IMG/VR virus record: IMGVR_UViG_3300041402_000686
Span: 1 to 24,361 of that record
Origin: a virus
Length of the DNA stretch: 24,361 nucleotides
Strand: one strand, 5' to 3'
Each line of letters starts with the position of its first letter. The first letter of the stretch is position 1. The notes under the pieces are model-generated. The model was given only the letters and a program-made list of their open reading frames with translations. It was not told where the DNA came from and did no database searches. Of the stretch, positions 13,224-23,846 are shown one piece after another. Both the position numbers and the translations under genes were made by a program.

Positions 13224-13541
13224 ATGAAAGAAAAAACATTACATAATTCAACAGTTTCAGGCGCAAGAGAAAACGTAAAAGATATTAACATCGTAGGGAA
13301 TGGAGATCTATTTCAACTTTTGTGCAAAGCCTCTTCGAAAGAAGAAGGATGGATGAAATCAACAAAAGCAATGCAGATAGGAGGCGGCCTTTCAAGTGGG
13401 TGTTTAGTCCAGGTTACCACTCAGCAGAAAAATATAGACGGTTCATATTCAATAGCAGAGGCATTAACATTCATTCCATGTGTTAGAATAATCGAAGATA
13501 TTAACGGGGGTAGAAAATTAGTTTCTTTTGACCATGCCTAA
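13224..13541 (+). CDS. Conserved-type small phage protein
   Basis: A 105-residue protein with AAAGGA upstream. Motifs include FQLLCKASSKEEGWMKSTKAM, split by a Gly turn, then GCLVQVTTQQKNIDGSYSIAEALTF and PCVRIIEDINGG. The 'GCLVQVTTQQxxxDGSYSxAEAxTFxP' pattern is familiar from small proteins encoded near phage head genes, but I know no function. Its last bases overlap the ATG of the head morphogenesis gene by eight bases, so they are coupled. Confidence 0.6.
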   Translation: MKEKTLHNSTVSGARENVKDINIVGNGDLFQLLCKASSKEEGWMKSTKAMQIGGGLSSGCLVQVTTQQKNIDGSYSIAEALTFIPCVRIIEDINGGRKLVSFDHA

Positions 13542-14487
13542 ATCAAAACCATTCGCAAAACCAACCTTTCCAAATTCCATAGTCCAGGACTATGGAAAAG
13601 CTATAATCAAAGAAGTAAACCTAATCGACAATCTTATCAAAGAGATCCTTTATCCCCAACTCGATAAGATCACCAACACCAAAAGCGAAAGATTAGACTC
13701 AACTGTCAGACTTGATATTGAATTAAAAAAACTTGCAGGGGTTGACTTGGTTGTTGAATTAATAAGACGGATCAAATCAAAATTCTATGGAGAGCTCATT
13801 CCAGACGGACAGGAGCCAACGCAAAGACTATTCACCAAGTCTGCAAGGAGAATAGCAAAAACATTTATGACTCGGACTGAAGAGTTTACGGAAAAAAAGT
13901 TTGTCGCGGAGTTCGAAAATCAGACTGGAACAAAACCCTTGGCACGAGATTTAAATGTCGATATATTTCTGGATGAATCTATTGCTAGAAATGTAAATCT
14001 AATCAAAACCTTACCTAATAGATATCTATCACAAGTTACGGATCTTGTAACCGATGCTGTGAGCAAGGGCCAGCTTACTCGTGAAGTCAGGAAAGAACTT
14101 TTTAAAATTAAGGAAACAACCAAGAATTCTGCTAGACTTTTGGCAAGAGATCAGATTTCAAAGCTAACAGGTGTATTAAACGAATCACGATTACGAAAAC
14201 TCGGAGTAAAAGAATACATATGGAGAACTGTAAATGATAGCCGTGTAAGATCATTATCAAATACGAATGGCGTTAGTAGTCACGCTTATTTAGAAGGAAC
14301 GCTTCATAAATGGTCATCAGACCCTGTGGTTGTCTTCAAAGGAAAACGGGCAGGAACAAGGCATGCACCTACGGAAGATTTCCAGTGCAGATGCCACGCC
14401 CAAGGAGTTTACGACGACATAACAGGAATAGAACACCCCGAAACAAAAGCCGCCCGTAAGAAGTCTATTGCTTTGGGGTTGCTATAA
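13534..14487 (+). CDS. Phage head morphogenesis protein (SPP1 gp7-like)
   Basis: A 317-residue minor head protein of the SPP1 gp7/Mu F type, which binds the portal and enters the procapsid. The C-terminal domain (about 195-292) is diagnostic: SARLLARDQISKLTGVLNES, then YIWRTVNDSRVRSLSNTNGV, HAYLEGTLHKW and the terminal FQCRCHAQGV with C285 and C287. The N-terminal two thirds are helical with many Arg/Lys residues. I chose the ATG at 13534 over a TTG six bases upstream. It overlaps the previous gene. It lies about 9 kb from the portal, whereas these two are adjacent in most phages, pointing to insertions between them. Confidence 0.85.
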   Translation: MPKSKPFAKPTFPNSIVQDYGKAIIKEVNLIDNLIKEILYPQLDKITNTKSERLDSTVRLDIELKKLAGVDLVVELIRRIKSKFYGELIPDGQEPTQRLFTKSARRIAKTFMTRTEEFTEKKFVAEFENQTGTKPLARDLNVDIFLDESIARNVNLIKTLPNRYLSQVTDLVTDAVSKGQLTREVRKELFKIKETTKNSARLLARDQISKLTGVLNESRLRKLGVKEYIWRTVNDSRVRSLSNTNGVSSHAYLEGTLHKWSSDPVVVFKGKRAGTRHAPTEDFQCRCHAQGVYDDITGIEHPETKAARKKSIALGLL

Positions 14488-14490
14488 TAT

Positions 14491-15129
14491 TCAAACGGTA
14501 ATTAGTTTTTTTGAAAAATAAATCTGCCCTTTCCCCGTTACAAGAACTTTATGCGCTGTTCGTTCTTCCTCTTTGTGGTCCAAATAAGTCACTTTTTTAA
14601 CTTCAAACAACCCCGAGTTCATATAGGTTTGATAAGGTCTGTTAGATTTAACTAGATACTTATTATCATAGAAAAATTTAAAAAGTTTATTCTGACCTGT
14701 TTTGAATCCTTTTTTAGTTAGTAGGTTTGCAAATTCAGCAACAGTAATAGAGTTTACACTTGTTTTGACTTGATCGTGAAATTCAATCTTTGGTTGTGCT
14801 TCTTCTAACTGTAAAGATTGGCTCTCTATTTCTTGTTTTAGGTCTTCAATCTCTTCATTTAAAAACCCTATTGCCTGTTGGATTAATAATTTCTTTTCAA
14901 GGTCTGTTTTTGGGAGCTTTGACGATCGACTTAGGTGTTGATTTTGCTGGATGTTTAGTTTTATAGCTGTGACTTCTTCCTCATTCAGAAGCGTTACTAC
15001 TCCATTTTTAACTTTATCAGGGAATAACTTTTTTACATATTTTGAAACGGTTGTGTGGTGGATGTCAAAAGTATCAGACACCATGGCCACGGTCATATCA
15101 TCGGTGTGATTGATGGTTAGTTCTTTCAT
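14491..15129 (-). CDS. Phage antirepressor-type protein with KilAC domain
   Basis: A 212-residue regulator. The N-terminal 60 residues contain a helix-turn-helix pattern (MTVAMVSDTFDIHHTTVSKY, about 12-31), a coiled coil follows at about 75-112, and the KilAC/ANT domain covers 115-212: FHDQVKTSVNSITVAEFANL, KKGFKTGQNKLFKFFYDN and YMNSGLFEVKKVTY. KilAC proteins of phages counter repressors or regulate lysogeny by DNA binding. I chose the ATG at 15129 because it has a GAGAAG ribosome site; the in-frame extension to 15186 would begin inside the leader hairpin. Its stop lies three bases from the convergent end of the gp7-like gene. Confidence 0.85.
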   Translation of the reverse strand: MKELTINHTDDMTVAMVSDTFDIHHTTVSKYVKKLFPDKVKNGVVTLLNEEEVTAIKLNIQQNQHLSRSSKLPKTDLEKKLLIQQAIGFLNEEIEDLKQEIESQSLQLEEAQPKIEFHDQVKTSVNSITVAEFANLLTKKGFKTGQNKLFKFFYDNKYLVKSNRPYQTYMNSGLFEVKKVTYLDHKEEERTAHKVLVTGKGQIYFSKKLITV

Positions 15130-15147
15130 GATTTTCTTCTCAAAATA

Positions 15148-15217
15148 AAAAAGCCCACTAAACAAGAGTTGCGAACACGAATACAAGGATTAATGTCTCT
15201 TATCTAATGGGCTTTTT
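15148..15217 (-). terminator. Terminator-like hairpin in the KilAC gene leader (possible attenuator)
   Basis: AAAAAGCCCACTA at 15148-15160 and TAATGGGCTTTTT at 15205-15217 are inverted repeats with one wobble, a 13-bp stem, with an inner AGAG/CTCT pairing. On the minus strand the stem ends with GGGCTTTTTTATTTT, a terminator-like run, only 19 bases before the KilAC start codon. On the plus strand it also ends in T residues, so it may terminate in both directions. Confidence 0.6.
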
Positions 15218-15274
15218 GATATATTCGTAATTCGCACTGTTACTGTTTCAGTATTTTGGTATTAAATCAATAGT

Positions 15275-15346
15275 AAAAAAAACCGGAGCGGAACCAGCAC
15301 AGAACCGCCCCAGATACCACCGGATGGATTGGAGTACATCCAGTGG
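15275..15346 (-). terminator. Terminator of the leftward 671/128-residue gene pair
   Basis: Read on the minus strand just after the stop at 15355, a first hairpin pairs 15346-15337 with 15326-15317 (CCACTGGATG with CATCCGGTGG, one mismatch). A second, GC-rich stem pairs 15311-15305 (GGGGCGG) with 15291-15285 (CCGCTCC, one mismatch) and is followed by eight T residues (plus-strand A at 15275-15280 plus 15281-15282). This fits a Rho-independent terminator. Confidence 0.65.
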
Positions 15347-15354
15347 AGTGGAAA

Positions 15355-15741
15355 CTACCCTAACTTCTCTAGTTCCTTCTCCAATTCCTCGGTTGATTTA
15401 TCTTCGAGTTCTGCATTCTTCTTTTTATGCATGATTTCCAAAATAGTATCCTTTCTCGCTTTATTTTCAACCTTCTTTTCGTTTTGCTCTGCCTCATCAA
15501 GCTTAACCTTGATAATATGTTTAACAATATCAAACTTAAGCCCTAGAACCTCATTTGCATTGCTTTTCTTGACGACAAAGCTTTCTTCTTCATTCTCTTT
15601 TACTGCTTTATTTAAAGCCTTAGCCAAATTATCAAGGCATAGATCACCTTTAATCAAAGGAAGATCCCAAAGGTCTTCCTTTGTTAGGCTTCCTCTTGAA
15701 CTTTCAAATCGTAGTTTTAGTCTATCTGCTTTTTCAAACAT
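15355..15741 (-). CDS. Conserved small partner protein ('DLWDLPL' family)
   Basis: A 128-residue, charged protein. Its signature is KLRFESSRGSLTKEDLWDLP near residues 8-27, then a predicted amphipathic region (LDNLAKALNKAVKENEEESF), LGLKFDIVKHIIKVKLDEAE, and a C-terminal coiled coil of Lys and Glu ending in STEELEKELEKLG. I recognise this pattern from small phage and plasmid proteins of unknown function. An AAAGGAG site precedes the start. The gap from the 671-residue gene is 11 bases, and both share one promoter and the terminator at 15275-15346. Confidence 0.6.
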   Translation of the reverse strand: MFEKADRLKLRFESSRGSLTKEDLWDLPLIKGDLCLDNLAKALNKAVKENEEESFVVKKSNANEVLGLKFDIVKHIIKVKLDEAEQNEKKVENKARKDTILEIMHKKKNAELEDKSTEELEKELEKLG

Positions 15742-15752
15742 TATGTTCTCCT

Positions 15753-17768
15753 TTAAAAATTAATTTTAATTGTACGAGTAAAAGCACCCGTTACTTTGCA
15801 AAAAATACTGTTTTTTTGCGTTGATGAAAATCCAAGGCCAGAAAGTTGATTATCCGTTACACTGGCTTTCATTTTTGAACCAAGCACTTCAAAGACCTTT
15901 CTATGTTCAATCAAATCTGACTTTAAGAACTCATTAAAAAAACCTCTTGCGGAATTTTCATTTTTACACCCATCAAGAATAAAAAACAGATGTTTGTTCC
16001 CATTCGCTTTTTCATCCCAATGATTAGGAGAATTCATAATCATTGAAACCTTTTGGAACTTTTGCGTTGCAACATTCCAGACTTGTTTTGAGCTTTGAGA
16101 AGAAGGCAATGACTTAACGAATTTAAACCCAGATTCTTTATTGAAATTAACAGTGGCAACACTAACCTTTTCACCCTGTCGCAACTCTTTTCCGTATGAG
16201 TAAGAATATATTTTCCCGTCATATTCTATCTGAGCAGTAAATCCAGTTTTACCTCCATTGTGTCGGTAATTATGAACAAGGAATTCATGGTCCCCTGGCT
16301 GAATTTTATTAATATCCGTGTGTATAATATTTTCAACAGCCACTTTATTTCCGGGCTGTTGAATATCAACATCAAGCATACCAGACGAAGGTTGAATTCG
16401 TCCTTTTTTATGATAATCAATAAGATTTCCGTTAGGCTCAATACAATGAGCGTCAAAATCATTTTGATTGTTATCGCCATCATTCCACTGAATGGTGAAT
16501 CGTAAAACCCCTTCAACATTTCCCCCGGCTTTTTTAACTCGTTCTTTCATTGAGTCGGCAATATCACCATTATACGCCCATGAAAAGTTATTATGCCAGC
16601 TAAAAATAGGCATTGCATCTTTATTAACAGGGGCAATCAAACTCATGAGATTTCCACTATGGCGGTTCTCAAGCATCAATTCAATGCTTTCAGCTTTCGG
16701 CAAAATATCATTGATAAAAGTTGAAATTTCAACCTCATCAACTTTTTCCATTTTCTTAACATCATCTGGAACTTCATTTGACATTTCATCAAAAACGTTC
16801 ATTGCCTTTTTAACTGATCTATCAGCAAATAGAACATTGTTGATTGTAATATCATCTTGAACAGCAAATCTACGCTGTAATGAATCACCAATACCTAACT
16901 CTTCAACTTTCTTTTGAGCATTTTCAATCATACTTTTTGTAATAACTGCCGTTGGACGCTTGTAATTTGTTGGAGCAACTTTTGTTTCAAAACTTCGAAC
17001 AGCAAAATCGAGCTCTTTTCCATCGGAAACATCAACAAGTAATGTTCCGATTACAGAATTTCTTATTCTTGCCGCAGCTTTCAAAATTACGGATTCCGAC
17101 CAGCAATAATTATCTTGATGTTTTACTTCTAATTTGTCATACTCAACTTTATGTTTCAGAAATAAATCAACAATAGACTTGTGTTCTTCGCCTCGATAAA
17201 TTGACTTCTGTTCAATTAATTCAAGAACTGTCTCTACTGCATCAATTGAGATTTCATCAAGACCACGTTTGAAAACTTCTTTTCCACTTCGAATGTTTGA
17301 CAGGACAGTTCCAATTTCATCTTTATGCTTTACAAATTTATTAGGCAATTTGTAATGGAAATGATCAAATTTAAGAATTCCCCCATTTTTCAATTGCTGA
17401 AGGCTGCTGTCAGTTCCCAGATTAGCCTCGTAATGAAGAAATGTATTCTCAACTTTTTCAGATTTTACGAGTTTAGAAAGTGCATCGGCTACAACCTGAT
17501 AATGACCGCCAATAATAACGTCCCAAATTGAAATCAATTTATTATCAATGATAGCGACAACATTTCCACATGCTCGAATAAATTGCTTGCAGCATTGACA
17601 ATCATGCTCTGTTCTTTCCCTGAAAATAGGGTTTGATCCTTCTGGAAAACTTTTTAAATAAGCACCCCATAATTCGTCTTTTTCAATATCAACACAAAAC
17701 AGTTCTGATTTCGACATCTTAATGAACTGCTCATGTATTACTTTTTTAAATTGTTTGAAATTTTTCAT
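15753..17768 (-). CDS. Conserved 671-residue protein with DUF2135/YfaP-like beta domain
   Basis: I chose the start at 17768 because a near-perfect GGAGG lies nine bases upstream; an in-frame ATG at 17822 has none. A cysteine cluster at C57, C59, C60 and C67 (HDCQCCKQFIRACGN) suggests a metal site. The middle (about 150-400) is mostly helical. Residues about 420-545 form a beta-sandwich with WNDGDNNQNDFDAHCIEPNG, SSGMLDVDIQQPGN and HNYRHNGGKTGFTAQIEYDG, resembling the DUF2135/YfaP pattern. The C-terminus has a family-like NGNKHLFFILDGCKN, RGFFNEFLKS, HRKVFEVLGSKM and LSGLGFSSTQKNS. The whole matches an uncharacterised family I have seen with the 128-residue partner. It has no signal peptide, so it acts in the cytoplasm. 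Confidence 0.65.
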   Translation of the reverse strand: MKNFKQFKKVIHEQFIKMSKSELFCVDIEKDELWGAYLKSFPEGSNPIFRERTEHDCQCCKQFIRACGNVVAIIDNKLISIWDVIIGGHYQVVADALSKLVKSEKVENTFLHYEANLGTDSSLQQLKNGGILKFDHFHYKLPNKFVKHKDEIGTVLSNIRSGKEVFKRGLDEISIDAVETVLELIEQKSIYRGEEHKSIVDLFLKHKVEYDKLEVKHQDNYCWSESVILKAAARIRNSVIGTLLVDVSDGKELDFAVRSFETKVAPTNYKRPTAVITKSMIENAQKKVEELGIGDSLQRRFAVQDDITINNVLFADRSVKKAMNVFDEMSNEVPDDVKKMEKVDEVEISTFINDILPKAESIELMLENRHSGNLMSLIAPVNKDAMPIFSWHNNFSWAYNGDIADSMKERVKKAGGNVEGVLRFTIQWNDGDNNQNDFDAHCIEPNGNLIDYHKKGRIQPSSGMLDVDIQQPGNKVAVENIIHTDINKIQPGDHEFLVHNYRHNGGKTGFTAQIEYDGKIYSYSYGKELRQGEKVSVATVNFNKESGFKFVKSLPSSQSSKQVWNVATQKFQKVSMIMNSPNHWDEKANGNKHLFFILDGCKNENSARGFFNEFLKSDLIEHRKVFEVLGSKMKASVTDNQLSGLGFSSTQKNSIFCKVTGAFTRTIKINF

Positions 17769-17823
17769 TGATAAACCTCCAATCATCATTATCAGTTCGG
17801 CTTTGTGCCCTCTGCATGACAAA

Positions 17824-17948
17824 ACTGTATTTTAAAACGATTTAACCTGTCAATACTTATTTAAATAAAGCAACAATTATTGTTTATCTGAATAAATATT
17901 AAATAAGTTAAATAAAAGTATTGACAATCCCAACCAGTTTGATAGGAT
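17824..17948. promoter_or_regulatory. Divergent promoter region with 11-bp inverted repeat
   Basis: The 236-base gap between 17768 and 18005 holds two opposed promoters. Leftward: TTGACA on the minus strand at 17853-17848, 18 bases, then TACAGT at 17829-17824. Rightward: TTGACA at 17921-17926, 16 bases, then TAGGAT at 17943-17948. Around both -35 boxes lies a perfect inverted repeat, TGTCAATACTT (17848-17858) with AAGTATTGACA (17916-17926), extended by TTAAATAA-type A/T sequence. The region between is very A+T-rich. Confidence 0.55.
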
Positions 17949-18004
17949 GTATTTAACACAGCGGCACAAGGCCAAAGTGATCAACCTAATGATTGGAGAG
18001 AGTC

Positions 18005-18250
18005 ATGAAAACTATAAACTGGATCGAAAAAGAAGGAAAACTATTTAACGGATACATGAACCAGGGAATAAAGCGAGAAAATGCAATGATATTAGCATCG
18101 ACTGACATCAAAGCTATGAAATACGAACTAGTCTACACAGAGACAAAACAAGAGCTAGACAGTCTTAAAAATAAGACTCTTGTTTTTGGGTATTCAGAAT
18201 GGGAAATAAGAAAAATTATGGAATTAGAAAAAATTCTAAAAAGTTACTAA
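18005..18250 (+). CDS. Small hypothetical protein (81 residues)
   Basis: The ATG at 18005 follows GGAGAG by five bases. An in-frame TTG at 17993 is rejected because it would swallow that ribosome site. The 81-residue product is helical and charged (NWIEKEGKLFNGYMNQGIKR, later ETKQELDSLKNK and EIRKIMELEKILKSY) with no membrane segment. It begins a short rightward series of three small genes from the promoter at 17921-17948. I do not recognise it. Confidence 0.5.
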   Translation: MKTINWIEKEGKLFNGYMNQGIKRENAMILASTDIKAMKYELVYTETKQELDSLKNKTLVFGYSEWEIRKIMELEKILKSY

Positions 18251-18255
18251 TCGCA

Positions 18256-18300
18256 AAAAGCCGGAGAGGGCGACCTCTCCTTAACCGATAGACTGGAGAG
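18256..18300 (+). promoter_or_regulatory. Hairpin with anti-Shine-Dalgarno arm, plus 16-bp direct repeat
   Basis: GGAGAGG (18263-18269) and CCTCTCC (18274-18280) form a perfect 7-bp stem with a GCGA (GNRA-type) loop. The right arm CCTCTCC can also pair with the ribosome site GGAGAG at 18295-18300, so the two pairings compete. The 16 bases at 18256-18271 (AAAAGCCGGAGAGGGC) recur exactly at 18698-18713 after the third small gene. The repeat and pairing suggest a regulatory role, not proven. Confidence 0.5.
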
Positions 18301-18302
18301 TC

Positions 18303-18470
18303 ATGGAAAAACAAAAATCAATAAAAATGGCAGAAATTATTGGCGAACAAGTTGTTAGCTTAATGGAAAAAGGGGTAGACTATAAAATTGCAACCAAAAT
18401 CGTTTTTGATGATATTAATGAAAAATGGCCTTTAGCTATGGCTGACTATATCAAATCAAATGAGTCTTGA
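18303..18470 (+). CDS. Small hypothetical protein (55 residues)
   Basis: The frame at 18303-18470 begins at ATG two bases after a GGAGAG site and ends at TGA. The product is helical and acidic-basic mixed: MEKQKSIKMAEIIGEQVVSL, then EKGVDYKIATKIVFDDINEK and a C-terminal WPLAMADYIKSNES. The hydrophobic spacing fits a small soluble helical protein. The next gene's ATG lies inside its last codons (18460), an 11-base overlap. Function unknown. Confidence 0.45.
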   Translation: MEKQKSIKMAEIIGEQVVSLMEKGVDYKIATKIVFDDINEKWPLAMADYIKSNES

Positions 18471-18699
18471 GGAACTGCTTAGGCTTGGCGAATTCGCCAT
18501 CAACGACCCAAGCCTTTTAAAAAATCACTTTGACAATGAAATTCCTTTGAGAATAGCAAAAACCATAAAAGAGGAAAACCTATTTATATTGGATTCGTTG
18601 GGTGAAGATTATTATGATAAAGAATTTATAGGACTCCTACAGTCAGAATGTTTAAGGGCGTTTAAAATATTAAAATTCTATTTATCAAATCTTAAATAA
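18460..18699 (+). CDS. Small hypothetical protein (79 residues)
   Basis: The ATG at 18460 overlaps the previous gene by 11 bases, suggesting translational coupling. The product is Leu-rich and amphipathic: SLEELLRLGEFAINDPSLLK, then IPLRIAKTIKEENLFILDSL and ECLRAFKILKFYLSNLK. It is probably an all-helical soluble protein. The direct repeat AAAAGCCGGAGAGGGC begins at its stop. No family recognised. Confidence 0.45.
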   Translation: MSLEELLRLGEFAINDPSLLKNHFDNEIPLRIAKTIKEENLFILDSLGEDYYDKEFIGLLQSECLRAFKILKFYLSNLK

Positions 18700-18916
18700 A
18701 AGCCGGAGAGGGCTAATAAACACCCGCCTTTACTCTCTCACCAGTCAGGCGGTAGCGGTTAATTGCTTCTGTGATTAACCGCTTAAATTTAAAGAGTGTA
18801 CATTTTATCTAAAACAGATTAATGTTCATTCTAAACTGTGCAAGGTTTCATGACCTGCATAACCCAAGGAGTATAGTTATGCTCCTTATCTTTTAACTTC
18901 TTTTAAGGAGGTAATC
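18700..18916 (+). other. Noncoding stretch with two hairpins before exported-protein gene
   Basis: No gene is supported in these 217 bases. The direct repeat of 18256-18271 recurs at its left end (18698-18713). A perfect 10-bp stem pairs AGCGGTTAAT (18754-18763) with ATTAACCGCT (18774-18783), with a 10-base loop and no T-run, so it is not a classic terminator. A second hairpin, AAGGAGTATA with TATGCTCCTT (18866-18887, one wobble), is followed by T-rich sequence and may terminate transcription upstream of the gene at 18917. The AAGGAGG ribosome site at 18905-18911 lies downstream of it. Confidence 0.45.
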
Positions 18917-19321
18917 TTGAAACGATCATTTTTATTCACAGCGCTAACGTTGCTATTTGCCGTGTCTGCATTTGCATTCCCGTCGAAACCGCTGCCGGGG
19001 TTCAGTGCGAATCAATTTGTTTTTAAAGTTCCTATTGTTGCTCCACCGCCTGTTTTTGCGGTCCATGTAAGTGACCCAGGGCTGGGCCAAACAGCAACTA
19101 TAGATTATATTCAATCGATTTCCACGGCTGGCGCAACTTCTATCGCTGACTGTTATTTCTGTCACAAAGCTGAATCACTTAAAACCGCCTTGTTAAAATC
19201 CGGTAGTTCAGGAGGGCTACCAGTTTTTACCAGATATAGCGATACTTGGAAAACATTGAACCTTTATAAACCTACTCCCTGGACTTATAACCGACTTAAT
19301 CCTGACTTGTTTTTAAGTTGA
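18917..19321 (+). CDS. Exported small protein with CXXCH motif, TTG start
   Basis: The start is TTG at 18917, supported by a near-perfect AAGGAGG ribosome site five bases before it; no in-frame ATG fits. The 134-residue product begins with a Sec signal peptide (KR, then SFLFTALTLLFAVSAFA) with likely cleavage near residue 20. The mature part is Pro- and Ser-rich. CYFCH, at about residues 89-93, matches the CXXCH signature of covalent c-type heme attachment, but no distal Met or cytochrome fold is evident in about 40 residues around it, so chance or a metal or redox role is equally possible. A Rho-independent terminator follows at 19355-19386. Function unknown. Confidence 0.6.
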   Translation: MKRSFLFTALTLLFAVSAFAFPSKPLPGFSANQFVFKVPIVAPPPVFAVHVSDPGLGQTATIDYIQSISTAGATSIADCYFCHKAESLKTALLKSGSSGGLPVFTRYSDTWKTLNLYKPTPWTYNRLNPDLFLS

Positions 19322-19354
19322 ATTAAGCCGATCCAAAGTTTTCAAAGATACTAA

Positions 19355-19386
19355 AGCCTGATAAATTAAATTTTATCGGGCTTTTT
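19355..19386 (+). terminator. Rho-independent terminator
   Basis: AAGCC (one bulged T) GATAAA pairs with TTTATCGGCTT across a short A/T loop, with TTTTTT at 19382-19387. It lies 34 bases after the exported-protein stop and closes the transcription unit from 18005-19321. Confidence 0.75.
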
Positions 19387-19411
19387 TATTATCAGGTGTA
19401 AAAATAAATAC

Positions 19412-19446: not shown

Positions 19447-19926
19447 ATGGAAATTAAAAATCTATTCCCAAAAGCTAAAGAGCAAGCGAACGATGGTCCT
19501 TGGGTGATCGAAGAGATCAGCAACGGGCTCAAGGCGCGCAATGTTACTTTGAAATATGGGGTAGTAAGAACAGCAAATAAAAATATACCAGTCCAATTTT
19601 TTGAATACGACCGTATCTTTGGGAAAGGAGCTTTTTTAACAACGGGAATATTAAAAGTAATGGACATGTTTAACGAGCTTCAAGAGTTGACTCCTGAAAC
19701 TTCTGGGTATGTTTTTAAAGACGCAATATATTTGTATCATTCAAAGGGGATTTTGAAAAGAAATAACAGGTCGAATAGCGAAGAATTTTATTCTATAGAA
19801 ACTCTAAAGAATAAAGCTCTAGCATCCTATCTGAAATTAGACCATCAAGATCCTGATTATGAAAGAGATTCGAATAGGAGTGAAGTACACAGTGGTTGTA
19901 CCGAACTCCAAACGGTACAAGATTAG
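19447..19926 (+). CDS. Unknown 159-residue protein, possibly leaderless
   Basis: The frame starts at ATG 19447 without a ribosome site but directly after a TTGACA promoter box. The N-terminal half mixes strands and helix (FPKAKEQANDGPWVIEEISN, TLKYGVVRTANKNIPVQFFE) and the middle has ILKVMDMFNELQELTPETSG. The last 22 residues overlap the next gene by 68 bases in another frame. That overlap is unusual for this compact genome and could mean that the last codons, or the next gene's first codons, are not translated. I recognise no family; it heads the operon containing the patatin-like protein and capsid genes. Confidence 0.45.
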   Translation: MEIKNLFPKAKEQANDGPWVIEEISNGLKARNVTLKYGVVRTANKNIPVQFFEYDRIFGKGAFLTTGILKVMDMFNELQELTPETSGYVFKDAIYLYHSKGILKRNNRSNSEEFYSIETLKNKALASYLKLDHQDPDYERDSNRSEVHSGCTELQTVQD

Positions 19927-20998
19927 CGGGAATTTTTCCGGCACTAAGCTTTTTACGGAAATCACAAGCCAAACAGGACTATCTCACCCTGAGATGAGCC
20001 TGAACAGCCAAGATCAAATAGCTGAAATCTTATTCAACAAAGATCATAAAGTAGGGACTCCCTATGATATGATCACGACTGAGCAGGAATTAGTCGTTAA
20101 ATCCTACGATAAACCGCCCGTTAAAAAATCAATAGCAACAAGACAGCATTTCAGAGGAGAAGTTGAAGAGGGGCGCAAAGCTCTGTTTCCTTTCCTGAAT
20201 GTTGCTAATTGTTATTCTTTCGACCAGTCTTACTTTATCCGAACAATTGGTCAAATCAGAATTCAAGAAAATCTTGGTAATAATTCCGCACTATTTACCG
20301 GTGCTGGTTTCGGCGCAATTCAAGCGTTTTGGGGAGCTCTAGACCGCAAAGCTGTAGACTTAGCAAAATGGTTTGTAAATGATTTGAAAAAAGCCATCCA
20401 CAAAGGACCAGTTAGAAAAACAAGTGAATTTGTCATCGGTGTTCTACTAGAGCATGACGGTAAAAGACTCAATCCTTCAAGAGCAAAAAAAGCAATCAGG
20501 AAACTTTTCAAAAAAGACGCTGGCGATCTTTTAGTTCGAGATTGCAAAAAAGATATTTTCATTCCCGTTGAAGATATTTCAGGAAGAATCAAAGTCGTTA
20601 CAAAAGAAACATACCCGGACCTGCCAATATATCAAGTCTTAAATGCTGCTGTTTTCGATCCAATATTTTTCAAAACTAAACCAGAAGTTAAAGGGTTGGG
20701 CGTTCTTAATGGCGATATTGCAAAAAACAACAATTACTTTCTTAGAAAGAATAACCCAAATCTTAACATTACAAGTGTTGGGTGCCCTGTCCGATTATTT
20801 GACAAAGGAACTGAAAGTATCAGCCGTGAAGATTTAGCCTTGAAAGTTTCAGACCGAAAGCATGAGACTGACTTAATGGTTGAAATAGATGGGCCTTACA
20901 AACGAATTCAATGCAATCCTATTGATGAAGTTTACCAATTTGCTACAGATCAAAAATCAATCGAGTTAGCTTTTGCATCGGGGGATATCAATGGATAA
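19859..20998 (+). CDS. Patatin-fold protein lacking catalytic residues (pseudo-phospholipase)
   Basis: A 379-residue protein with the layout of a patatin-like phospholipase. The segment after a helical N-terminus (about 118-160) aligns with the fold: a Gly-poor oxyanion region FDQSYFIRTIG, then TGAGFGAIQAFW where the family has GxSxG. The nucleophile Ser is replaced by Gly (G150). A later block LNAAVFDPIFFKT (261-273) matches the family's ASxAAPxxF motif. LNGDIAKNN (283-291) matches the DGG/DGA..NN motif but Asp is replaced by Asn. Thus both dyad residues and the oxyanion glycines appear lost, implying a binding or structural protein. The alignment is by eye; a search is needed. It sits between an unknown gene and membrane-protein genes in a capsid operon. 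The start at 19859 overlaps the upstream gene by 68 bases and has a weak ribosome site. Confidence 0.55.
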   Translation: MKEIRIGVKYTVVVPNSKRYKISGNFSGTKLFTEITSQTGLSHPEMSLNSQDQIAEILFNKDHKVGTPYDMITTEQELVVKSYDKPPVKKSIATRQHFRGEVEEGRKALFPFLNVANCYSFDQSYFIRTIGQIRIQENLGNNSALFTGAGFGAIQAFWGALDRKAVDLAKWFVNDLKKAIHKGPVRKTSEFVIGVLLEHDGKRLNPSRAKKAIRKLFKKDAGDLLVRDCKKDIFIPVEDISGRIKVVTKETYPDLPIYQVLNAAVFDPIFFKTKPEVKGLGVLNGDIAKNNNYFLRKNNPNLNITSVGCPVRLFDKGTESISREDLALKVSDRKHETDLMVEIDGPYKRIQCNPIDEVYQFATDQKSIELAFASGDING

Positions 20999-21683
20999 TT
21001 GGGACAACACAGAAACGCAAAAGTTCGACACATTAAACGGAACTTTCAACATTACAAATAACACACTAGCAAATCGACTTTGGACAGTGTTAATTAGGAT
21101 GATCAGGTGGTCATTAATGAAATACATTTTGACGATTGTTTTCATGGGCATTTTAGCCTTGGCATTCGGGTACAGCCAGAAGGATAAAAAACTAGCCGAG
21201 GATATGGCGGCAAAAGCAGTTTATAACAATCCTAAAGGAATGTTTGATCTTTTCATTAAAAACAAAAACCCAAAGATCAAGATAACAAACAATCATCCTT
21301 TGTACAACTCAGAAGCCGTGAAGGAGTGGGAAGAAGAATTTAAGTTGAGTTTTGGAAGCCTATTTCAGTATATTACTATCGATGGCGAAGAGGGAAAAGA
21401 AGATTTGATCGTAATGAAAAAAGCGGCCTTTAGAATTGAAGATGAAAAAGAAGAACCTTTAAAGCTTGAATTTTCAACCTTAGTTTCAGATAGTGCTGAT
21501 GATATTTGTGAATCATATTTTGGCGAAGTTCCAACGGAGTATCAAAAATCTTTCTTCGACAGAAAACGATACTGGACTATAAGAAATATCAAGGACGAAT
21601 TAACCTATGAAAATGATGATGGAGAAAAATACTTTAGATGCGTAATCAATCAAGAAACAATCAACGAGTTACTTGATGAGTAA
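20991..21683 (+). CDS. Single-span membrane-anchored protein
   Basis: The ATG at 20991 follows GGGGGATATCA and overlaps the patatin-like stop by eight bases. The 230-residue product has a polar, Asn- and Thr-rich N-terminus (about 1-35), a membrane helix at about 40-60 (KYILTIVFMGILALAFGY), and a large soluble C-terminal domain rich in Glu, Lys and Asp (LFIKNKNPKIK, EEEFKLSFGSLFQYI, VSDSADDICESYFGEVPTEY). The orientation of the soluble domain is not clear from the sequence. No family is recognised. Its stop overlaps the next start by eight bases. Confidence 0.55.
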   Translation: MDNWDNTETQKFDTLNGTFNITNNTLANRLWTVLIRMIRWSLMKYILTIVFMGILALAFGYSQKDKKLAEDMAAKAVYNNPKGMFDLFIKNKNPKIKITNNHPLYNSEAVKEWEEEFKLSFGSLFQYITIDGEEGKEDLIVMKKAAFRIEDEKEEPLKLEFSTLVSDSADDICESYFGEVPTEYQKSFFDRKRYWTIRNIKDELTYENDDGEKYFRCVINQETINELLDE

Positions 21684-21939
21684 AGTATTTGTTGACCCTG
21701 ATAATGGGTGTGTAATGTATGAATGCCCAGGATGTGGGTACGCTCATAGCGCTGATAAAAGGTGGACATTTAATGGGGACTTAAAAAACCCGACATTAAA
21801 CCCCTCTTATTTAGTTCATGAAGATAAAAAAGCAAAATATAAAAGGTGTCATCATTACGTAAGGGATGGAAAAATACAATACCTTGCTGACTGTGGGCAT
21901 GGTCTAGCTGGACAAACAGTAGAAATGAAAAACTGGTAA
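21676..21939 (+). CDS. DUF6527-type zinc-binding protein
   Basis: An 87-residue protein: CPGCGYAH (C17, C20, H24), then RWTFNGDLKNPTLNPS (29-44), CHHYVRDGKIQYL (58-70) and ADCGHGLAGQTV (71-82, C73 and H75). This arrangement matches the DUF6527 family of small phage and prophage proteins whose cysteines and histidines would bind one or two zinc ions. The function of that family is not established as far as I know. The ATG at 21676 is chosen because a TTG three bases upstream is less likely; it overlaps the previous stop by eight bases. Confidence 0.7.
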   Translation: MSKVFVDPDNGCVMYECPGCGYAHSADKRWTFNGDLKNPTLNPSYLVHEDKKAKYKRCHHYVRDGKIQYLADCGHGLAGQTVEMKNW

Positions 21940-21941
21940 AG

Positions 21942-22415
21942 ATGAGTAAAGTTGACGAAGTTTTAACAAATATAAATATATTTCTATCGACCACTACTGA
22001 TAGGATAACGCCTAACGTCATTCTTTTTGTGACCGCTTTCAACGGGTTTATTCTTGGGTTCTTAACAACGGGGTATTTAGGCTTAAACTCAATGGGTATT
22101 TTTTCATTCCCGTTCTGGTTGTTTATTGAACAGTTCGTAGTAATTTGTTTTTTCTCTAGTCGATACGTTGACCTGACAACCGAATATCTAACAAAGTTTT
22201 TTCTAGCCGGTGTGATAGGATACTATGTTCAATGGCAATCATTCGGGGTTTATGTCGCTGAGTATGAACCAGAAATGTTAAAGCATATTCAGCCAGTGTT
22301 AGAAGGTGGGTCAGGAAATTTTATATTTATATTGTTTCTGATTATGGGCGTGAAGCATTGTTTTTCAGGAAATGAAGTCAAGCAGAGAACCAAAATAAAT
22401 ACAGATATACAGTAA
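21942..22415 (+). CDS. Multi-span membrane protein
   Basis: A 157-residue hydrophobic protein with about four membrane helices: roughly 25-45 (NVILFVTAFNGFILGFLTTG), 52-72 (IFSFPFWLFIEQFVVICFF), 84-98 and 122-138 (FIFILFLIMGVKH). A polar C-terminus (GNEVKQRTKINTDIQ) follows. The start is two bases after the DUF6527 stop with a GGTAAAG-like site. I see no holin class signature beyond small size, and phage membrane proteins of this kind are seldom assigned. Function unknown; position between virion genes is noted. Confidence 0.5.
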   Translation: MSKVDEVLTNINIFLSTTTDRITPNVILFVTAFNGFILGFLTTGYLGLNSMGIFSFPFWLFIEQFVVICFFSSRYVDLTTEYLTKFFLAGVIGYYVQWQSFGVYVAEYEPEMLKHIQPVLEGGSGNFIFILFLIMGVKHCFSGNEVKQRTKINTDIQ

Positions 22416-22699
22416 TGGATTATTTATCACTGGCGTTTTTCTGGTACTATTTCAATGTTGCCGCAATAACTACCATAATTATTTTCATGCTTGCCATTGG
22501 ATACCAAAGATCAAGGCGAGTAATAATAAACACAGCCGAAAGGCCATTCAAACAAGATAATTCGGTGATAAAATTAATTTTGAAAGTTGCAATCGTTGCA
22601 ATCGTTTGGTTTGTGGTTAGGGAATACGGGCTTGATAAATACGTGGGTCAGTTTTTTACATGGGCATCAGATTTAATAAGTGAGGCTTGGAATGGTTGA
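22415..22699 (+). CDS. Small two-span membrane protein
   Basis: A 94-residue protein with two hydrophobic helices, about 7-27 (AFFWYYFNVAAITTIIIFML) and 53-69 (LILKVAIVAIVWFVV), with a basic loop between (YQRSRRVIINTAERPFKQ) placing that loop likely in the cytoplasm. It overlaps the preceding gene at TAATG (22413-22417) and the following one by eight bases, so it is translated within the capsid operon. Holin-like dimensions are possible, but no endolysin is in view, so it stays unassigned. Confidence 0.5.
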   Translation: MDYLSLAFFWYYFNVAAITTIIIFMLAIGYQRSRRVIINTAERPFKQDNSVIKLILKVAIVAIVWFVVREYGLDKYVGQFFTWASDLISEAWNG

Positions 22700-23846
22700 A
22701 AGATTCGACGTAACAACGACAAAAAAATGGAAGCTTGACGCCAGAGGAAGACTTATTGTTGAGGCAACCCCAACGAGATCAGGCATTTTTAAATACATTT
22801 ATCCAGATGGCAGTACGGTTAGAGAGCTAAGACATCCCGACGATGTGTTTTCAAAAGAGACAATGGATTCCCTCGAAGTAATACCATACACAATTCAGGA
22901 AAACCACACGTCATTGATGACTCCTGAAGACGTCAGGGAAAAGACATACGGCACAACAATGGCCGGGGCAAAAAGAATCGATAATCTCGCCAAAATAGAT
23001 ATCAAAATCAATGACGGGAAAGAGATCAAAGCCGTCATGAAAGGTGAAAGCTTAGAATTGTCAAATGGGTACACTTGCGACGTTATCAAAGAATCAGGAA
23101 CGTTCGACGGGGAAGAATACGACGTAAGACAGAAAAATATAATTTACGATCATGTAGCTAGGGTCAAAAAAGCCAGAGGTGGTGGAGATTGCCGCATCCG
23201 CCTTGACAGTGCTGACTCAGCTATTTGTGGCATCGAAGCCGAGAGACTTGACTCTTCAGGCGAAACTAAAAACCATCCAACAGGAGAAAGCATGGGTGAA
23301 CCAACCAAGGTGATTCAACGAGAGTTGCCATCGAGAGAGTCAGGAGAGTTCAAACTTGACGCTCAAGATATTGAAATAGACGAGTCTAATAAAGGTGTCA
23401 TCGATACTTTTGTTGCTCGTGAAAATAAACTTTTTACAGCCTTGGCAACTGCCAATACTTCACTGGTGGAGCAATCTGTAAAAATGGATAAAATGGAATC
23501 TGAAAACAAAGCTCTAATCAAGAGTGCAGAAAATTCGGTTCCTTCTGAAAAAATGGATCAAGAGATTGAGAAACGAACTAATCTTTACGCAATGGCCGAA
23601 GAAGCCAAGATTAAAGATTACAAGAATCTGTCAATCAAGGATTTGAGCAAACAGATTGTTGAGCAGTCGGGCTTATTCAATAAAGAAAAACTTGACAGCG
23701 TTGAGTATGTGGATTTTGCAATCGAACACATGCAAGAGGATCATACAAAAAAAGTTCTTAAATCACGTAAAAATTTAACTCTCCATAAAGGCATCAAATT
23801 CGATGATGGAAATAAAGGGGAATCCGCACTAGAACAAGCCCAATAG
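22692..23846 (+). CDS. DUF2213 prohead protease/scaffold-type protein
   Basis: A 384-residue protein. The N-terminal 170 residues show DUF2213 features: LDARGRLIVEATPTRSGIFK, VRELRHPDDVF at 43-53, ENHTSLMTPEDV at 70-81 (H72), ELSNGYTCDV at 122-131 (S124) and YDVRQKNIIYDHVA at 143-156 (H154). These His and Ser residues are candidates for a protease triad of the prohead type, which I infer and cannot confirm. The C-terminal half (about 210-384) is charged and helical (EKMDQEIEKRTNLYAMAEEA), as in scaffold tails. It would shape or mature the capsid. The ATG at 22692 overlaps the previous stop by eight bases; the cement gene begins eight bases after its stop. Confidence 0.8.
   Translation: MVERFDVTTTKKWKLDARGRLIVEATPTRSGIFKYIYPDGSTVRELRHPDDVFSKETMDSLEVIPYTIQENHTSLMTPEDVREKTYGTTMAGAKRIDNLAKIDIKINDGKEIKAVMKGESLELSNGYTCDVIKESGTFDGEEYDVRQKNIIYDHVARVKKARGGGDCRIRLDSADSAICGIEAERLDSSGETKNHPTGESMGEPTKVIQRELPSRESGEFKLDAQDIEIDESNKGVIDTFVARENKLFTALATANTSLVEQSVKMDKMESENKALIKSAENSVPSEKMDQEIEKRTNLYAMAEEAKIKDYKNLSIKDLSKQIVEQSGLFNKEKLDSVEYVDFAIEHMQEDHTKKVLKSRKNLTLHKGIKFDDGNKGESALEQAQ

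Follow-up and report, generated by a model that had tools for sequence, protein, structure and literature searches.

Patatin phospholipases are united in Pfam PF01734, which includes RssA, plant patatin and PlpD and is defined by the motifs GxSxG, DG[GA] and GGGx[KR]G. One of them, CapV (NF041079), is an effector of the CBASS defence system; solved CapV relatives are available as 9kh6, 9kh7, 9wn0, 9wn1, 8zr9 and 9kej. In Vibrio cholerae CapV the serine was replaced (S62A) to make a catalytic mutant (PMC12802263). Filamentation caused by the E. coli CapV variant Q329R does not need the nucleophilic serine, while an arginine and an aspartate of other motifs are required (PMC9095652), and therefore this variant sets a precedent for a scaffold role of a patatin without its nucleophile. 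A patatin has also been described in Wolbachia phage WO, where it lies by the tail module, is annotated as phospholipase A2 and is proposed to form a putative lytic cassette together with an adjoining holin-like protein (PMC9203015). None of the open-licence PMC papers that we searched describes an inactive patatin encoded among phage head genes.

We have analysed a stretch of 24,361 nucleotides, referred to below as the window, that makes up positions 1 to 24,361 of the IMG/VR virus record IMGVR_UViG_3300041402_000686. The gene under study occupies positions 19859–20998 of the + strand, begins with ATG and codes for 379 amino acids followed by a stop codon. Its product, the pseudo-patatin, consists of a predicted β-sandwich (residues 1–77), a linker with a conserved PPxKKSI sequence (residues 78–114) and a patatin region similar to CapV (approximately residues 115–379). 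No homologue came up when annotated phages, plasmids, viral contigs and genome contigs were searched directly, and there is no match to a PHROG family. Homologues were found in five further records when IMG/VR was scanned first with the MuF-like protein encoded nearby and afterwards with family alignments. Since two of these records (L009 and L010) have identical sequence, there are five distinct proteins together with that of the window, one of which (L012) is incomplete at a contig end. Identity to the window protein is 62% for L087 and about 41–42% for L011, L012 and L009/L010. Repeating the search with different peptide patterns led to the same set, and scans with the DUF2213 protein and with a 159-residue protein encoded next to the pseudo-patatin gave nothing new. 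The phages nearest to the terminase of a 72-kb relative infect scattered hosts, with less than 40% identity in this protein.

Taken alone, the window protein resembles patatins weakly. Specifically, it matches the Pfam Patatin model with E 0.042 over residues 138–273 (PF01734 E 1.2e-4 in its own record), NCBIfam CBASS_lipase with E 0.039 and a PADLOC phospholipase effector with E 0.0042. All five family members match PF01734 (best E 9.6e-6), PADLOC phospholipase effectors (best E 9.2e-8) and CBASS_lipase (best E 2.2e-5). The PF01734 score of the L087 protein is 28.2 bits when read from the record and 26.4 bits as a protein, the gathering cut-off being 27.7. Searches of PDB sequences by phmmer and with profiles revealed no patatin match. 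The initial annotation had singled out CapV as the relative of interest, and this is borne out: of the defence and NCBIfam models, that of CapV matches best, and among all NCBIfam models the matches are limited to CBASS_lipase and one anti-phage phospholipase. In a tblastn search of plasmids with the L012 homologue, five of the eight best matches are annotated as CBASS cGAMP-activated phospholipases, although with E values of 0.9–5 they are individually not significant.

For a direct comparison, twelve CapV-type proteins were aligned and made into a profile HMM. With it, the five phage proteins score 13.5–22.9 bits, while 2000 shuffled copies reach at most 4.7 bits. HHalign, the kind of profile check that had been proposed beforehand, aligns the phage family with the CapV profile over 269 columns at a probability of 95.4% and a score of 66.6; none of 100 column shuffles exceeds 22.2. 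Chance resemblance of the motifs was rejected on the grounds of these shuffle controls. At about 16% identity, the alignment continues beyond the catalytic centre in the direction of the C-terminal end of CapV, and over approximately 270 columns the oxyanion loop, the nucleophile elbow, a β hairpin, the AAP block and the DGG block follow each other in the same order and at the same spacing as in CapV, as the initial annotation had supposed for the patatin fold in general. Plain membership of the CapV family was rejected as well: with NF041079 the window protein scores 13.2 bits and the scores in G009 and G005 are 19.3 and 18.5 bits, the curated cut-off being 200. No CD-NTase gene stands beside the pseudo-patatin, whose neighbours are head and membrane genes; in most of the CapV loci that we fetched a nucleotidyltransferase adjoins CapV. 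The matches of the homologues to Pfam, together with the HMM and HHalign scores above shuffles, uphold the patatin ancestry claimed earlier in spite of replaced catalytic residues. We consider it well supported by these comparisons that the 379-residue protein is truly, if remotely, related to patatin phospholipases and is closest to the CBASS effector CapV.

The catalytic motifs themselves are altered in every member of the family. SFDQSYFIRTIGQ (residues 120–132, 20216–20254, + strand) replaces the oxyanion loop LDGGGxRG. The glycine run is missing, as had been noticed, because SFDQSYFIRT (residues 120–129) occupies that loop in the alignment with the twelve CapV proteins. GAGFG (residues 148–152, 20300–20314, + strand) replaces the nucleophile elbow GxSxG and aligns on GTSxG of CapV, so that the serine is changed to glycine in all five proteins. 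DPIFF (residues 267–271, 20657–20671, + strand) takes the place of AAPxxF, with the CapV block ATSAAPtyF pairing with AAVFDPIFF. NGDIAKNN (residues 284–291, 20708–20731, + strand) replaces DGGxxxNN, with NGD (residues 284–286) on DGG; the catalytic aspartate has become asparagine in four members and glycine in L087. The three blocks originally named, TGAGFGAIQAFW, LNAAVFDPIFF and LNGDIAKNN, are thus all present in the open reading frame. Across the family the changes are GGGxRG to QSYFxRT, GTSxG to GAG[FV]G and DGG to NGD (four proteins) or GGD (one protein), and in the merged alignment DGGxxANNP of CapV pairs with [NG]GDxxKNN. None of the three defining motifs of PF01734 is kept in any of the five phage proteins, even though all of them match the profile. 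We strongly infer that phospholipase activity has been lost, because GGG, Ser and Asp are retained in 12/12 CapV proteins and in 0/5 phage proteins. The anatomy of a pseudo-patatin is very probable.

Nowhere in the patatin region is conservation as strong as in the altered motifs. Invariant residues make up 30 of the 42 positions in the four motifs versus 54 of 223 elsewhere in the region; the hypergeometric P of 8e-9 is a guide only, since the five sequences are related and the motifs were picked beforehand from knowledge of patatins. Conservation is highest in the former oxyanion loop, where 12 of 13 residues are invariant. Where dS could be measured between two members, dN/dS is about 0.07 (dN/dS components 0.103/1.51 for L010–L011, 0.076/1.12 for L011–L012 and 0.116/1.55 for L010–L012); dS is saturated in the pairs that contain the window sequence, and the value comes from these other pairs. 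Decay of a pseudogene was rejected, there being no stop codons and strong purifying selection. As judged from the sequences, the pocket is rebuilt and was then held under selection. A conserved pocket together with replaced lipid-cutting residues makes it appear that a defence-type enzyme has been converted to a binding or structural protein.

Within the altered motifs Ser120, Asp122, Ser124, Tyr125, Arg128, Asp267 and Asp286 are invariant among the five sequences. A displaced catalytic pair is conceivable because two of them could form a new active centre, namely Ser124, within the former oxyanion loop, and Asp286, which follows the position of the old aspartate by two residues; or the pocket could carry out some other chemistry. 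The strict conservation of the altered motifs speaks for such a rebuilt enzyme, but the glycines for an oxyanion hole are gone and we know of no patatin with a nucleophile in the oxyanion loop. We regard this explanation as quite unlikely. The term phage pseudo-phospholipase used in the initial annotation therefore holds as far as the patatin ancestry and the altered motifs in all five proteins are concerned, while Ser124 and Asp286 leave room for a displaced pair in what was meant to be an inactive protein.

CapV does not have a counterpart of residues 1–77. AlphaFold gave pLDDT 32 with a single sequence; with five sequences the patatin region stayed mostly below 50 and the N-terminal part was predicted confidently. 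The secondary structure assigned to the remainder of the protein likewise has low confidence. The fold searches in effect covered residues 1–78 because confidence in the model of the patatin region was low. For the N-terminal part they matched C-terminal domains of GH29, carbohydrate-binding domains and domains of tailspike type, with Z values up to 5.8, which are common folds and not diagnostic. A search of BFVD, where the query was in effect residues 1–78, returned nothing under E 0.001.

The claim that the gene belongs to a capsid operon is confirmed by its neighbours. Upstream lies the gene of the 159-residue protein (19447–19926, + strand), which has no family match and no transmembrane segment; the start of the pseudo-patatin gene overlaps it by 68 bp in the window and by 71 bp in L087, the two loci measured. 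Downstream follow three membrane protein genes, all on the + strand: the first (20991–21683; its ATG start is backed by homologues) codes for one N-terminal transmembrane segment and a soluble C-terminal part, the second (21942–22415) for 157 residues with predicted transmembrane segments, and the third (22415–22699) for 94 residues with two such segments. Every record in which the second was found carries the pseudo-patatin as well. This cassette is bordered downstream by the DUF2213 head maturation protease (22680–23846, + strand; Pfam and PHROG) and upstream by a MuF-like minor head protein (13528–14487, + strand), which adjoins the 159-residue gene in the relatives and lies 5 kb off in the window. 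The order from the 159-residue gene through the pseudo-patatin and the three membrane genes to the protease is the same in the window and in three other independent loci, and L087, L010/L009 and L011 have the full order with the MuF-like gene in front, the second membrane protein having multiple transmembrane segments. In L087 a cement protein and the major capsid protein come next; a major capsid protein is likewise encoded in the L010 record. Pfam, PHROGs and synteny thus agree in placing the pseudo-patatin in a head morphogenesis operon of conserved gene order. A more distant relative (L003) has the MuF and DUF2213 genes without the cassette.

Two differences in gene order distinguish the window. 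Approximately 5 kb of mainly minus-strand genes (14491–19400), absent at this place in the relatives, part the MuF-like gene from the cassette; they include a gene for a 689-residue phrog_1735 protein that is present in more than 500 phage records. A cysteine-rich gene of 88 codons (21673–21939), which L087 does not have, is located between membrane genes 1 and 2.

A patatin gene followed by small membrane proteins calls to mind the putative lytic cassette of phage WO, and one of the three membrane proteins resembles spanins, though very weakly (E 0.39). If the similarity of layout (PMC9203015) reflected function, the cassette would serve lysis or membrane disruption. The WO patatin is annotated as a phospholipase A2 and stands by the tail module, whereas the protein described here has lost the catalytic residues and its cassette is placed inside the head operon; moreover, no cassette protein matches a holin or endolysin family. 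We consider a role in lysis very unlikely.

Relatedness to CapV raises another explanation. A dead CapV-like subunit could act as an anti-CBASS decoy, joining the CapV assemblies of the host in a dominant negative manner or soaking up the activating cyclic dinucleotide. The closest relatives found are indeed CapV-type patatins, the alignment extends beyond the catalytic core, and there are known phage sponges of CBASS messengers, Acb2, Tad1 and Tad2 (PMC12043709). These are unrelated proteins that bind signalling nucleotides directly, and their likeness to the pseudo-patatin is limited to the hypothetical role in countering CBASS. The location in the head operon, the conserved membrane partners and the extra N-terminal domain would not be expected of a simple decoy, and the identity to CapV is low for co-assembly. 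Furthermore, none of the records points to a host that has CapV. A decoy is in our opinion rather unlikely, and the stricter idea of a catalytically dead CapV copy that works as an effector mimic, by disrupting the assembly of CapV or intercepting the signal that activates it, is unlikely too. If the latter were true, it would be counter-defence by conversion of the host's own killer protein.

The roles put forward in the initial annotation, to bind, mimic or block a host patatin or lipid or to serve as a virion protein, are candidates; the position in the head operon and the N-terminal β-sandwich make a structural role more likely than counter-defence early in infection. On balance, the pseudo-patatin is somewhat more probably than otherwise a non-lipolytic, re-tooled patatin that has a binding or scaffolding function shared with the adjacent membrane proteins, either late in infection or as part of the virion. 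The phage lineage would have acquired a CapV-type patatin, dropped the lipid-cutting chemistry and retained the domain as a binding or scaffold module. In the course of this the oxyanion loop and nucleophile elbow may have turned into a strictly conserved new pocket made of SFDQSYFxRTIGQ, GAGxG and [NG]GDxxKNN, and the β-sandwich may offer a surface for the attachment of partners. The protein would be produced alongside the head proteins, in one cassette with the 159-residue protein and the three small membrane proteins, and would work together with them, either within the virion or at the cytoplasmic membrane. Instead of hydrolysing lipid it might tether something to the membrane, be it a lipid, a protein or the head. 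Ligand binding, the complex with membrane proteins, the time of expression and the place in the virion are what we infer from these data; the tie to the virion comes from gene order and a common type of β-sandwich, which is not diagnostic.

When a relative of a defence enzyme is inactive, service as a decoy or as a new structural component readily suggests itself. The small defined set of proteins found here, with one pocket and three membrane partners, could be used to study how viruses reuse the fold of an immune effector.

The head region has further features in the relatives. Inside the MuF-like gene of L087 (3178–5265) and L002 (3021–5093) there is an intein, with matches to Hint_2 and Intein_splicing; the window copy is without one. 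Antisense open reading frames of 270–282 codons (L087, 4210–5058, − strand; L002, 4041–4853, − strand) overlap the middle of these genes and contain a Cys pair and VDYQADF...VIEVQ motifs, nuclease-like by eye. Mismatches by codon position in the antisense frame (0.27/0.13/0.41) suggest that this frame is the selected one. It looks as though a homing endonuclease is coded antisense inside the MuF intein of both records. Directly before the MuF gene, L002 (2091–3020) and L094 (17845–18681, − strand) have genes with a repeated CxCG-type pattern, by eye similar to homing endonucleases, and therefore mobile genes seem to be drawn to this head region. Elsewhere in the window there is a DNA cytosine-5 methyltransferase gene (1539–2507, − strand; TIGR00675, E 1.3e-44) and, close to the left contig end, a gene for a YdjM-like inner membrane protein (318–827; PF04307, E 9.8e-8).
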